Below are positions 4,390-62,894 of a DNA stretch of 64,000 bases, piece by piece (within the stretch, counting starts at the first letter, position 1; each line of letters opens with the position of its first letter). The position numbers and the translations under genes are program-made. Source of the DNA: Streptomyces neyagawaensis (GTDB lineage: Bacteria; Actinomycetota; Actinomycetes; Streptomycetales; Streptomycetaceae); contig NZ_JAMGBG010000053.1 in NCBI RefSeq assembly GCF_023516595.1, forward strand, positions 1 to 64,000, written 5' to 3'. The notes under the pieces were generated by a model. The model was not told where the DNA came from, did no database searches, and was given only the letters and a program-made list of their open reading frames with translations.

Positions 4390-4669
4390 CGCTGCCTCCC
4401 GCTGTTTGTCGCGCCGGTCCCACCTGTCGATGCCCGTCAAGCAAGACCCTGCTCACATCCCCCTGCCCAGAATTCTGACCGTGTTGCCTGACATCGGCCA
4501 CCACCCGCCCCCAGCCTGTGGACAACCCTCCGGGACGCGCGACGACATACCCCAACCAATCCAGCACATCGGTCATATTTACTCCTAGTCTGACATTGCG
4601 CTCGCTCATCCAGTCCACAGGGCTTGCGCGTCTGTCCCGCTTCGGTTATTGGGAAGGACGGCTCACGCC

Positions 4670-5878
4670 ATGCCCGCAGATCTCGCCGTCATCGGACTCG
4701 GCCAGCTCGGCCTGCCGCTGGCCCAGGCCGCCGTCGCCGCCGGCATCCCCACGCTCGGTTACCGCACCGGCCCCGAACGCGGCTCCCTCACCCCCGCCGA
4801 ACTGCGCCGCATGCTCGCCAGCGGCTTCAGGCCCGGCACCAGCCCCGCGGAACTCGGCCGGGTCCGTACGGCGGTCATCTGTGTCCCCGTGCCCATGGGC
4901 GCCGACGGAGCGCCGGACCTCACCCAGGTGGAGGAGGCCGCCCGGGTCCTGGCCGCCCGTCTGCGCCCGCACACCACGGTCATCCTGGAGTCACCGGTCC
5001 ACCCGGGCACCACCGAGGAGTTCCTGCGTCCGCTCCTCGAAGAGGGATCGGGTCTGCGCGCGGGCCGCGACTTCCACCTCGCCTATTCGCCCGCCCGTGT
5101 CGACCCGGGCAACCGCGACTTCGGTCCCGCGAACATCCCCAAGGTGATCGGCGGCGTCACCCCGGCCTGCACGGAGTCGGCGGCCGCCTTCTACGGCCGG
5201 CTCACCGACAAGGTGGTACGCGCGCGTGGACCGCGCGAGGCCGAGACGGTGCAGTTGCTGGAGACCAACTACCGGCACGTCAACATCGCCCTCGTCAACG
5301 AGATGGCCGTCCTCTGCCACGATCTCGGCGTCGACCTGTGGGACGTCATCCGCTGCGCCGAGACCAAGCCGTTCGGCTTCCAGGCGTTCCGCCCGGGACC
5401 CGGCGTGGGCGGCCACGCCCTCGCGCAGGACCTGTCGGGCCAGGCCCCCCACTCACTGCGCATGGTCGAACTGGCCCAGCGGGTCAACCACCGCATGCCC
5501 CAGTACATCGTCCAGCGCGCCGCCACCCTCCTCAACGAGCACGGCAAGTCGGCCCGCGGAGCCCGCGTCCTCCTCCTCGGCGTCACGTACAAGCCCGATA
5601 TCGCCGACCAACAGGGCACCCCTGCGGAGGAGATCGCCCGCCGGCTCCTCCAACTCGGCGCGCACGTCAGCTACCACGACCCGTACGTCCCCGCGTGGAG
5701 CGTCCTCGACCGCCCGGTCCCTCGTGCCGACTGCCTCTACGAGGCCACCGCCGACGCCGACCTGACGATCCTCCTCCAGCACCACCGCACCTACGACCTC
5801 CAGGGCCTGTCGGTGAAGGCCCAGCTCCTCCTGGACACCCGCGGAGCCACTCCGACGGGGGCGGCGCACAGGTTGTGA
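4670..5878 (+). CDS. Nucleotide-sugar dehydrogenase homologue lacking catalytic residues
   Basis: About 402 residues of the UDP-glucose / UDP-ManNAc 6-dehydrogenase family. The N-terminal Rossmann motif VIGLGQLGLPLA, the central helix (RHVNIALVNEMAVLC), TKPFGFQ, PGPGVGGH and the C-terminal domain (LLGVTYKPDIAD) are all present. Three residues expected for catalysis are replaced. The nucleophilic Cys of GGHC is Ala (GVGGHALAQD), the Lys before the central helix is Gln (TVQLLET), and the neighbouring Asn is Thr. The frame is intact, so I infer a pseudoenzyme (binding or regulatory role) rather than a decayed gene. ATG 4670 is the start that gives VIGLGQLG at the usual place; AAGGA lies about 12 nt upstream. 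Confidence 0.8.
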   Translation: MPADLAVIGLGQLGLPLAQAAVAAGIPTLGYRTGPERGSLTPAELRRMLASGFRPGTSPAELGRVRTAVICVPVPMGADGAPDLTQVEEAARVLAARLRPHTTVILESPVHPGTTEEFLRPLLEEGSGLRAGRDFHLAYSPARVDPGNRDFGPANIPKVIGGVTPACTESAAAFYGRLTDKVVRARGPREAETVQLLETNYRHVNIALVNEMAVLCHDLGVDLWDVIRCAETKPFGFQAFRPGPGVGGHALAQDLSGQAPHSLRMVELAQRVNHRMPQYIVQRAATLLNEHGKSARGARVLLLGVTYKPDIADQQGTPAEEIARRLLQLGAHVSYHDPYVPAWSVLDRPVPRADCLYEATADADLTILLQHHRTYDLQGLSVKAQLLLDTRGATPTGAAHRL

Positions 5879-5954
5879 ACGGGGCGCACGCCGCCGCCCG
5901 AACACTCCGGGGCCGGTGGCAGAGGTGCCCCCACGCCGGTACCGTACAGACCCA

Positions 5955-6044
5955 GGTGGAGCCCACCGCAGCGGCTACTGCGACAGGCTCCTGGATGGTT
6001 CACGGAGTGTCCGCCCCCAGTCTTCGTGGGGGCGGCCGCTCACC
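5955..6044 (+). ncRNA. Predicted four-helix structured RNA element, copy 1
   Basis: 90 nt that folds without leftover. P1 closes the element: GGTG(g)AGC 5955-5962 with GCTCACC 6038-6044. P2 is CGCAG 5967-5971 with CTGCG 5978-5982. P3 is ACA-GG-CTCC 5983-5991 with GGAG-TGT 6004-6010. P4 is nine perfect base pairs, CCGCCCCCA 6011-6019 with TGGGGGCGG 6027-6035. The shape recalls a cloverleaf, but there is no T-loop, D-loop or U8, so it is not a tRNA. I do not recognise it as a known riboswitch. The + strand is chosen because copy 2 keeps pairing only in that sense. Not followed by a gene on +; it lies 3' of the dehydrogenase homologue. Confidence 0.5.
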
Positions 6045-6056
6045 GCCTCACAAAAA

Positions 6057-6146
6057 GGTGGAGCCCACCGCAGTGGCTGCTGCGGCAGGCTCCTGGATGG
6101 TTCACGGAGTGTCCGCCCCTACTCTTCTTGGGGGCGGCCGCTCACC
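6057..6146 (+). ncRNA. Predicted four-helix structured RNA element, copy 2
   Basis: Tandem copy 102 bp downstream of the first, separated by a 12-nt A-rich spacer, with 84 of 90 positions identical. Of six differences, four lie in loops. The two in stems change A-U to G-U in P3 and C-G to U-G in P4, so pairing survives in a + strand transcript but would become A-C mismatches in a - strand one. P1 and P2 stems are invariant. Confidence 0.5.
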
Positions 6147-6472
6147 ATCCGTAAAGCCGCAAGACCCACCTCCTCCGGCACTGCACCATCCGAAGACGGA
6201 GTCGGTCCCAGCGGGTGGGCTTGCGGTGACGTCCCATGGGCGCCCCCTTCCACGACACCGCCCAGTAGCCCGGTGGACGGTTCGTCGGAATCGGGCCGGG
6301 CCCCGAGGGCGGGGTCCGGACCATGTCCTTGGAAGGGGGCCCCAGAAGAACTGGGGCGCCGATCACGAACGCTATCGGCCCACTTCGCCCGTTCGGCCCA
6401 CATTCGCCCCGAACGCAACCGCGCGCCCCGCCCGCAACTCACGCCCCCACCAGTCCCTTTGGGCACACGAAA

Positions 6473-6508
6473 AGGGGCCCGGTCGCCCCCGTGGGTGACC
6501 GGGCCCCT
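6473..6508 (-). terminator. Rho-independent terminator of guaB3
   Basis: Perfect 12-bp stem, AGGGGCCCGGTC (6473-6484) pairing with 6497-6508, followed on the minus strand by TTTTCG. It lies about 30 nt past the guaB3 stop. Confidence 0.85.
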
Positions 6509-6539
6509 CTCTCCGCTCAAATCGAGCGCGGTGTCATGT

Positions 6540-7664
6540 TCACCGCTTGTGCTGCGAGTCGGCGATCGTCACCTCGACGCGCTGGAACTCCTTCAGCTCG
6601 CTGTACCCGGTGGTGGCCATGGCCCTGCGCAGTGCGCCAAAGAGGTTCATCGAGCCGTCGGGCGTGTGCGAGGGTCCGGTCAGGACCTCCTCGATCGTGC
6701 CGACGGTGCCGAGGTCGACCTTCTTGCCGCGCGGCAGCTCCTCGTTCACCGCCTCCATGCCCCAGTGGTGCCCCTTGCCGGGCGCGTCCGTGGCGCGGGC
6801 CAGCGGGGAGCCCATCATCACCGCGTCGGCGCCGCAGGCGATCGCCTTGGGGAGGTCGCCGGACCAGCCGACACCGCCGTCGGCGATGACGTGCACATAC
6901 CGGCCGCCGGACTCGTCCATGTAGTCGCGGCGGGCCGCGGCCACGTCGGCCACCGCCGTCGCCATCGGGACCTGGATGCCCAGCACGTTCCGCGTGGTGT
7001 GGGCGGCGCCGCCGCCGAAGCCGACGAGGACGCCGGCCGCGCCGGTCCGCATCAGGTGCAGGGCCGCCGTGTACGTGGCGCAGCCGCCGACGATCACCGG
7101 GACGTCCAGCTCGTAGATGAACTGCTTCAGGTTCAGCGGCTCGTGCGAGCCCGAGACATGCTCCGCCGACACGGTCGTACCGCGGATGACGAAGATGTCG
7201 ACGCCCGCGTCCACGACGGCCTTGGAGAACTGGGCCGTGCGCTGCGGGGAGAGCGCCGCCGCGGTGACCACACCGGAGTCGCGCACCTCCTTGATGCGCT
7301 GCCCGATCAGCTCCTCCTTGATGGGAGCCGCGTAGATCTCCTGGAGGCGGCGCGTCGCGGCCTCGTCGGGCATGCCGGTGATCTCGTCGAGCAGCGGCTG
7401 CGGGTCCTCGTACCGCGTCCACAGACCTTCGAGGTTCAGTACGCCGAGGCCACCCATCTCGCCGATACGGATCGCGGTGGCCGGGGAGACGACCGAGTCC
7501 ATGGGGGCGGCCAGGAAGGGCAGCTCGAAGCGGTAGGCGTCGATCTGCCAGGCGATCGAGACCTCCTTCGGGTCGCGCGTACGACGGCTGGGGACGACGG
7601 CGATGTCGTCGAAGGCGTACGCCCGGCGGCCGCGCTTGCCGCGCCCGATCTCGATCTCAGTCAC
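6540..7664 (-). CDS. guaB3: GuaB3 family IMP dehydrogenase-related protein
   Basis: 374 residues, the usual length of the actinobacterial GuaB3 family. It has the TIM barrel of IMP dehydrogenase but lacks the CBS pair found in GuaB. Recognisable segments are the N-terminus EIEIGRGKRGRRAYAFDDIA, PFLAAPMDSVVSP, and the barrel segments VIADGGVGWSGDLPKAIACG and GADAVMMGSPLA. Its true reaction is less certain than that of GuaB; a role in purine metabolism is inferred from the family and from the tandem position downstream of guaB. GTG start at 7664 with AAAGG upstream. A hairpin separates it from guaB, and its own terminator follows. Confidence 0.9.
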   Translation of the reverse strand: MTEIEIGRGKRGRRAYAFDDIAVVPSRRTRDPKEVSIAWQIDAYRFELPFLAAPMDSVVSPATAIRIGEMGGLGVLNLEGLWTRYEDPQPLLDEITGMPDEAATRRLQEIYAAPIKEELIGQRIKEVRDSGVVTAAALSPQRTAQFSKAVVDAGVDIFVIRGTTVSAEHVSGSHEPLNLKQFIYELDVPVIVGGCATYTAALHLMRTGAAGVLVGFGGGAAHTTRNVLGIQVPMATAVADVAAARRDYMDESGGRYVHVIADGGVGWSGDLPKAIACGADAVMMGSPLARATDAPGKGHHWGMEAVNEELPRGKKVDLGTVGTIEEVLTGPSHTPDGSMNLFGALRRAMATTGYSELKEFQRVEVTIADSQHKR

Positions 7665-62816: not shown

Positions 62817-62894
62817 GGTGTTTCTCCTAGGTGTCTGCCCCGGCCGTATCAGGTACCGGGGTCAGTATCCGAGCGGGCGGATGCCCGTCGAAGA

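Follow-up and report, generated by a model that had tools for sequence, protein, structure and literature searches.

The 64,000-nt window analysed here (the whole stretch from position 1 to 64,000 of contig NZ_JAMGBG010000053.1 of Streptomyces neyagawaensis) holds a small locus in which tandem two-hairpin units abut a short open reading frame (ORF) read from the opposite strand. We propose, giving the idea about an even chance, that this locus is a convergent small RNA (sRNA) and small-protein pair built like the type I toxin-antitoxin loci of Gram-positive bacteria. A promoter located shortly before the first unit would drive a plus-strand sRNA beginning with the tandem units, and a minus-strand promoter at about position 6370 would drive an mRNA made of a folded leader, a 31-codon Arg/Trp-rich ORF and a 3' end running into the units. 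As the 3' end of this message would run into the same units as the plus-strand sRNA, the two RNAs would be complementary over them.

The element consists of two direct copies of 91 nt each, at 5954-6044 and 6056-6146 on the plus strand, which are 93% identical and spaced by 102 nt, so the tandem repeat reported in the preliminary description of this DNA is real. Each copy is made of a hairpin A (5958-5991 in unit 1, 6060-6093 in unit 2) followed by a hairpin B (6006-6040 and 6108-6142, respectively), and the 3' end of unit 2 overlaps the stop codon of the small ORF. In its own genome, the unit is found at a single locus only. Across the genus, the 193-nt stretch was matched in 89 of 392 genomes at E<=1e-3, and the other 303 gave no match at this threshold; one of the genomes counted among the 89 (L120) nevertheless yielded a fetched stretch without any unit by nhmmer, and its row was dropped. 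A scan with exact 27-mers returned 24 stretches, all of them from Streptomyces records, including S. scabiei, S. canus, S. coacervatus and S. torulosus. According to a profile search of the fetched loci, the number of tandem units per locus varies from 1 to 5: among 105 distinct loci, 55 carry one unit, 46 carry two, two carry three, one carries four and one carries five. With the stricter filters of the phylum-wide search, a covariance model of the unit matched 1 of 246 genomes, which is the own genome, and the few other Streptomyces shown in that draw were without a match to the model. Plasmids and phages gave no match to either the units or the peptide, and an origin from one of them was rejected on this ground. 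The element is thus a conserved Streptomyces element that occupies one chromosomal place in the fetched loci.

The structure of the unit was assessed on an alignment of 51 units (174 unit hits were reduced to 54 representatives, four with insertions were left out, and the first copy of the window was added). Hairpin A consists of the pairing GGAGCC..GGCTCC together with CCGCAG..CTGCGG, and hairpin B of the pairing AGTGTCCGCCCC..GGGGCGGCCGCT. In this two-hairpin structure, 94.9% of the cells are paired, and 8 pairs and 30 cells are changed on both sides. Its covariation score was equalled by none of 500 shuffles, its number of pairs changed on both sides by 12 of 500 and its number of pair types by 34 of 500, and all these values are far above those of slid controls; the scored structure also included a 3-bp outer helix (2-4/90-92), which varies on one side only. 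Hairpins A and B are therefore supported by paired changes across the 51 units, and the homologues with covariation that were sought in other genomes as a check on the RNA do exist. The pairing-preserving changes announced earlier hold for these two hairpins, but not for the closing helix called P1, whose percentage of pairing is equalled by 154 of 500 shuffles and whose covariation score is equalled by 184 of 500. P1 is moreover absent from the single-sequence folds of the plus strand and competes with both hairpins. Because P1 is not supported, the four-helix junction first proposed for each copy is not supported either. Conservation is also high at the level of the sequence, with 17 invariant and 35 nearly invariant positions among the 92 columns of the unit.

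The two hairpins differ in the strand on which they fold best. The preliminary description listed two differences between the copies within stems, and the change from C-G to U-G is indeed seen on the plus strand, in hairpin B, but the claimed change from A-U to G-U is not; the stem difference in hairpin A turns a C.A mismatch into C-G on the plus strand and G.U into G-C on the minus strand. The statement that such differences are tolerated only in a plus-strand RNA thus breaks down for hairpin A, as this hairpin folds better on the minus strand. Across the 51 units, wobble pairs in hairpin A favour the minus strand in 41 and the plus strand in 8 (a count that includes two inner positions, which are mostly C.A or A.C on the plus strand and G.U or U.G on the minus strand), and those in hairpin B favour the plus strand in 41 and the minus strand in none; these counts are of related rows and not of phylogenetically independent events. 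The mean energies go the same way, hairpin A having -24.6 on the minus strand versus -21.3 on the plus strand, and hairpin B -20.3 on the plus strand versus -15.8 on the minus strand, with a consensus energy of the whole unit that is about equal for both (-73.4 plus, -74.5 minus). A single strand for the whole unit, the plus strand, had been considered from pairs 56-86 and 66-76; this was dropped, since the count per hairpin shows that A prefers the minus strand. The hairpin on the 3' side of the unit is B for a plus-strand transcript and A for a minus-strand transcript, so that each transcript would carry its best hairpin at its 3' side. On neither side of the array in the window does a long U-run come after the outermost hairpin, as it would in a classical terminator.

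Several known classes of RNA were considered for the unit. It is not a tRNA, as had been stated, ARAGORN finding none in the repeat. Nor is it a recognised riboswitch or ribozyme: no Rfam family reaches its gathering score in the region 5850-6540, and the matches obtained at E up to 10 are all far below it, the best one among ribozymes being Twister-sister with 15.2 bits against a gathering score of 34. A riboswitch or another cis-regulatory leader was rejected on the basis of position, the plus-strand units lying 3' of a gene of the UDP-glucose dehydrogenase type (UGD-like) and tail to tail with guaB1 in 98 of the 105 loci. The suggestion of a structured sRNA or an undescribed RNA motif fits what we see, namely a conserved and folded element, absent from Rfam, with a promoter-like box before its first unit. 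The alternative suggestion of a tandem 3'-UTR element of the dehydrogenase is right as to the position, 3' of the UGD-like gene, and fits less well as to the nature of the element, because a conserved promoter-like box of its own precedes the first unit.

The plus-strand promoter would be made of a -35-like GTGGCA (5916-5921) and, 18 nt further, of a -10-like TACCGT (5940-5945), from which transcription is predicted to begin at the first base of unit 1 or right beside it. This -10-like box follows the pattern TANNNT. In 127 of 135 loci, the 22 nt that precede the first unit contain this pattern (versus 0 to 3 in eight control windows), and it ends 3-9 nt before the unit. Of these 127 loci, 83 have a GGTGG-like motif whose start is 25 nt ahead of the box, and in another 25 the distance is 26 nt; the base table of this promoter was drawn from the 51 of the 127 windows that are of full length. 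On the other strand, the candidate promoter of the small ORF carries a -10-like TAGCGT (6369-6374, minus strand) before the leader. A TANNNT box is found on the minus strand 37-40 nt before the CCTTCC arm of the leader in 108 of 118 loci, as compared with none in four control windows, and no clear -35 was seen on this strand. We consider it highly probable that two convergent transcripts are made.

The earlier reading of the locus was incomplete in that it overlooked this convergent minus-strand ORF, with its own Shine-Dalgarno (SD), leader and -10-like box. The ORF (6142-6237, minus strand) encodes a putative peptide of 31 aa, MGRHRKPTRWDRLRLRMVQCRRRWVLRLYGW, which was identified from its translation, from codon analysis and from HMM matches elsewhere in the genus, and it ends with a TGA that falls within the CTCACC end of the last unit. 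The DNA downstream of the units (6147-6390) is also conserved, with matches in 118 of 384 genomes, weak chance matches included. In 85 ORF copies of equal length, selected because their frame is open and begins with [MVI]GRH, the bases that depart from the majority number 200, 119 and 325 at codon positions 1, 2 and 3. The excess at third positions gives p=0.014 in a permutation over columns (81 distinct ORF copies), which is a moderate coding signal. The ratio of silent to replacing single-step codon changes is 58:83 in the true frame, the highest of the six frames (the next being 49:106). The mirror frame on the plus strand is interrupted by a single stop in the 81 rows, and its replacing changes are a little milder, with a mean BLOSUM of -0.32 versus -0.42 in the true frame. 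The start is ATG in 82 and the stop TGA in 83 of the 85 copies, in a set preselected for intact frames. In-frame insertions had been thought of as evidence for coding and were dropped, given this preselection and the occurrence of frameshifted copies. We regard translation of the 31 codons as probable, and the codon pattern of 6142-6237 weakens another candidate, a single large non-coding RNA running into 6147-6375.

The peptide is rich in Arg and Trp, with a net charge of +10 (K/R minus D/E) and a GRAVY of -1.17, and its helical moment is not above that of shuffled sequences, 29% of which equal it. It has no match in Pfam, NCBIfam or PADLOC. Its profile was matched in 66 of 293 genomes of the order (E<=0.01, remnants included), belonging to 1 of 9 genera; five weak matches in the phylum (E 7e-4 to 5e-3, over 15-21 residues) were judged to be due to chance. 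The SD of the ORF, GGAAGGGGG (6243-6251, minus strand), was located by sequence; of the 92 loci with an intact frame, 90 have GGAAGG no more than 25 nt from the start. The SD is complementary to a leader arm, GCCCCCTTCCA (6330-6340, minus strand), so that the leader of the message is predicted to hold its SD in a stem. At least 13 of the 15 pairs of this stem can form in 72 of 74 leaders, these being representatives of the 110 sequences, out of 129, that were chosen for holding both SD arms. As the arms are nearly invariant, the stem rests on complementarity and not on covariation.

The surroundings of the element are conserved, too. Upstream lies the UGD-like gene (4649-5878, plus strand; Pfam PF03721/PF00984/PF03720) of the UDP-glucose/GDP-mannose dehydrogenase family, and the gene that comes next on the same strand as the small ORF is a guaB1-like one of the IMPDH family (6540-7664, minus strand; Pfam PF00478). 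The UGD-like gene precedes the units, in the same orientation, in 102 of the 105 distinct unit loci; guaB1 follows them in the opposite orientation in 101, and both genes are found in 98. The three loci without a UGD-like match have just 17, 24 and 446 nt of upstream DNA, and three of the four without guaB1 have less than 280 nt downstream. The fourth (L036) truly departs from the pattern, guaB1 being unmatched in its 1500 nt of downstream DNA; there, by eye, another plus-strand gene is seen further downstream of the units, an ORF beginning MSQQFQPPVPD in place of guaB1. Just past the guaB1 stop of the window, a strong hairpin (6470-6512) followed by TTTT on the minus strand is likely the terminator of that gene. 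SCO4771 of S. coelicolor, a putative guaB1, is listed in the HrdB regulon (PMC6344877). Elsewhere in the window, at 62835-62891 on the minus strand, Rfam recognises an L17-Actino-Proteobacteria ribosomal protein leader with 69 bits.

In 82 of 102 loci, 70-85 nt separate the first unit from the end of the UGD match. In 10 of the 102 distinct loci this distance is 779-850 nt, a wide spacing that was noted in L013, L015, L018, L022, L032, L034, L035, L045, L055, L060 and L114 and that suggests an insertion or partial duplication; in these loci, the stretch directly preceding the promoter is nevertheless still similar to the end of the UGD gene. Other wide-spaced loci (L080, L082, L089, L103 and L104) show, by eye, remnants of an earlier unit before the last one or, in some of them (L080, L103), of the 3' end of the small ORF, and a GGTACCGTAC-like box shortly before the unit, such that the duplicated module may include the promoter. 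In L091, the leader breaks off and continues, again by eye, as an apparent inverted tail of the region, which suggests an inversion. As for the UGD-like protein itself, it carries GVGGHA at what we take to be the site of the catalytic-cysteine motif of the family. The motif is present in 105 of 107 homologues, with A in 50, G in 27, S in 23 and T in 5 at the variable residue and C in none. The gene is also present in all 30 genomes in which it was searched for, some of which were picked for lacking the element and some for weak or full matches to it; in several of them, the spacer is shorter or a remnant of the element is left. Judging by its sequence, the UGD-like gene is a probable conserved non-dehydrogenase.

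The units and the small ORF are closely linked. Forty loci were fetched by the peptide alone, several of them from species that are also represented in the unit set. Units are found on the opposite strand in 37 of the forty, and the last one ends 1-6 nt past the end of the ORF in all 37 and exactly 4 nt past it in 32. The three loci without units all have a broken ORF. In total, the ORF is broken in 10 of the 40 (L208, L219, L238, L240 and L242-L247; L208, which has lost its stop, is counted as broken by our own reading), and 7 of these 10 keep the units and 3 do not, as compared with 30 of 30 intact ORFs that have them (Fisher p about 0.012, computed by hand on related rows). In the set found by units, the ORF counts as intact by rule in 89 of 105 loci. 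The 16 that fail include a locus with no DNA past the unit (L055), four that have lost the stop codon (L066, L024, L038 and L106, the first of which is altered elsewhere too), one with ATA as the start (L063) and one with the start missing (L040). In the rest, the ORF is truncated, frameshifted, stopped or replaced (L079, L085, L104, L109, L118, L017, L035, L043 and L090, where the break is possibly just the end of a contig, the downstream domain of this genome being on another one). Two loci speak against a strict rule that the ORF is kept only where units are: in L157 and L163, the letters of the ORF are kept with only a remnant of a unit and without the plus-strand promoter, although the SD/leader and the minus-strand -10 box are damaged or gone as well. 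On a tree of the UGD-like gene with 104 rows (77 with the element and 27 without it, the latter being hand-chosen genomes, remnants included), presence or absence changes 13 times, and at least 11 of these changes are forced by starred branches. The remnants point to losses as the nature of these changes.

How would such a locus work? In the explanation that we favour, the SD of the small ORF would be locked in the leader stem, and the plus-strand RNA would pair with the 3' part of the peptide message, which would then be silenced by RNase III or by refolding. The units would serve as a 3'-end and pairing module for both transcripts, a double use that would account for the better folding of hairpin B on the plus strand and of hairpin A on the minus strand, and their number (1-5) would set the length of the complementarity. 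We find it somewhat more probable than its opposite that the plus-strand RNA represses the peptide, and toxicity of the peptide we hold to be conceivable and a little less than even. Altogether we infer four things, namely that the RNAs are made, that they pair, that the peptide is repressed and that it is harmful; what can be read directly from the DNA is the coordinates, the conservation, the strand preference of the hairpins, the facing boxes, the conservation of the ORF, its linkage to the units and the repeated change of presence with remnants. Since the peptide is very basic and not hydrophobic, we do not claim that it belongs to a known family of toxins.

Because the peptide is unlike the hydrophobic membrane toxins, a harmless regulated peptide stays a serious rival. 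A non-toxin small protein (for example a stress or regulatory peptide) would be tuned by a cis-antisense RNA, with the same anatomy and no addiction logic. All the anatomical evidence applies equally to it, and it accords with the very basic peptide as well as with the constancy of the place in the fetched loci and the absence of matches on plasmids or phages. The repeated changes of presence with remnants and the decay of the ORF with units kept (7 of 10 broken ORFs) are, however, what is expected of a toxin-antitoxin locus, and all 30 intact ORFs of the peptide-found set have units, though none of these observations is specific to toxins; we rank this rival as possible, on the unlikely side. 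Another rival holds that the minus-strand frame is untranslated and that the whole of 6147-6375 is an RNA conserved for its structure. This region does fold better than shuffles on both strands, the third-position excess is just p=0.014 by columns and the mirror frame is nearly stop-free, but the SD in 90 of 92 loci, the excess of silent changes in the true frame and the constancy of ATG (82/85) and TGA (83/85), even if intact frames were preselected, make it improbable.

The remaining rivals concern the units. They could belong to a trans-acting tandem plus-strand sRNA that binds other mRNAs or a protein, the minus-strand ORF being a separate gene that abuts it, and the promoter-like box, the conserved two-hairpin units with their near-invariant stretches and the variable copy number (1-5) would all agree with this. 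Such an sRNA would, however, leave aside both the fact that the last unit reaches 1-6 nt beyond the ORF in 37 of the 37 unit-bearing peptide-found loci and the better folding of hairpin A on the opposite strand, and we give it a low probability. The units could also be an array of bidirectional terminators with no regulatory RNA, B stopping plus-strand and A stopping minus-strand transcripts, as their place between convergent transcription units and the preference of each hairpin for the strand on which it lies at the 3' side would have it. This we consider lower still, in view of the promoter-like box conserved immediately before the first unit (127/135), of a conservation that exceeds the needs of hairpins (17 invariant and 35 nearly invariant columns of 92), of the lack of a clear U-run and of the 303 of 392 genus genomes without a match. 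Finally, tandem palindromic hairpins may bring to mind a dispersed repeat or MITE, a candidate that we rejected as having a negligible probability, given the single locus in the own genome and the one place across the fetched loci.

The convergent pair that we propose has its closest counterparts in known type I loci. The par locus of pAD1 (RNA I/Fst with RNA II) and the Fst family have convergent promoters, RNAs that overlap at their 3' ends and a shared bidirectional hairpin region, which in par is a terminator (PMC7472228); convergent promoters, 3' overlap and shared hairpins are predicted here as well. In par, as is predicted here, direct repeats lie in the complementary region and the SD, which is that of a 33-aa ORF, is sequestered by a leader stem (PMC7472228); this sequestration is a feature of par and not a general one of type I loci. 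Unlike in par, the repeat here is the whole two-hairpin module, in 1-5 copies and lying past the stop codon, there is no clear U-run terminator, and the locus is on a Streptomyces chromosome. The peptide also differs, being rich in Arg and Trp (GRAVY -1.17, charge +10) in place of the hydrophobic transmembrane helix that characterises the Fst/Ldr family, the Fst-like members of which share a PXXXG(C) motif (PMC7472228). Indeed, most type I toxins are hydrophobic membrane peptides (PMC8309996). In size, the predicted translation product, with its 31 conserved codons, lies within the range of type I ORFs (<60 aa). Overlap at the 3' ends is common to all the Gram-positive type I pairs described as of PMC4147584. 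Among them, txpA/ratA and bsrG/SR4 of Bacillus subtilis are convergent, with overlaps of about 75 and 120 nt, and act by degradation of the mRNA or induced sequestration of the ribosome binding site (PMC4147584). They differ from our locus by their toxins and by being located on integrated mobile elements, and no tandem units are mentioned where PMC4147584 describes them. Within Streptomyces, cutoRNAs also result from the 3' overlap of convergent transcripts, but they involve the long 3' UTRs of two convergent genes, whereas the small ORF of our locus is faced by conserved RNA units with a promoter-like box (PMC3765725 for cutoRNAs); the main text of that paper contains no 'guaB', '4771' or '4772'. 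Our literature search, which covered mostly titles and the beginnings of abstracts, found no report of the locus.

Before the cyanobacterial case of a 2025 paper, type I systems had been known only from Proteobacteria, Firmicutes and Tenericutes, and the small number of phyla is partly due to the difficulty of finding short toxins and antisense RNAs by sequence (PMC12390103). This cyanobacterial case, the type I-like msoT1/msoA1 of Microcystis, is likewise a pair of small ORF and antisense outside the classical phyla; it is from another phylum and was tested experimentally (PMC12390103). If our proposal is true, it would extend the type I kind to the antibiotic-producing actinomycetes, with a new sort of peptide, through a locus that is present in 89 of 392 Streptomyces genomes and matched by no model of Rfam, Pfam, NCBIfam or PADLOC. 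Even with a harmless peptide, this would be a conserved small protein with likely antisense control, and the tuning of one hairpin to each strand makes the units a clean object in which to study how overlapping transcripts share a 3' end.
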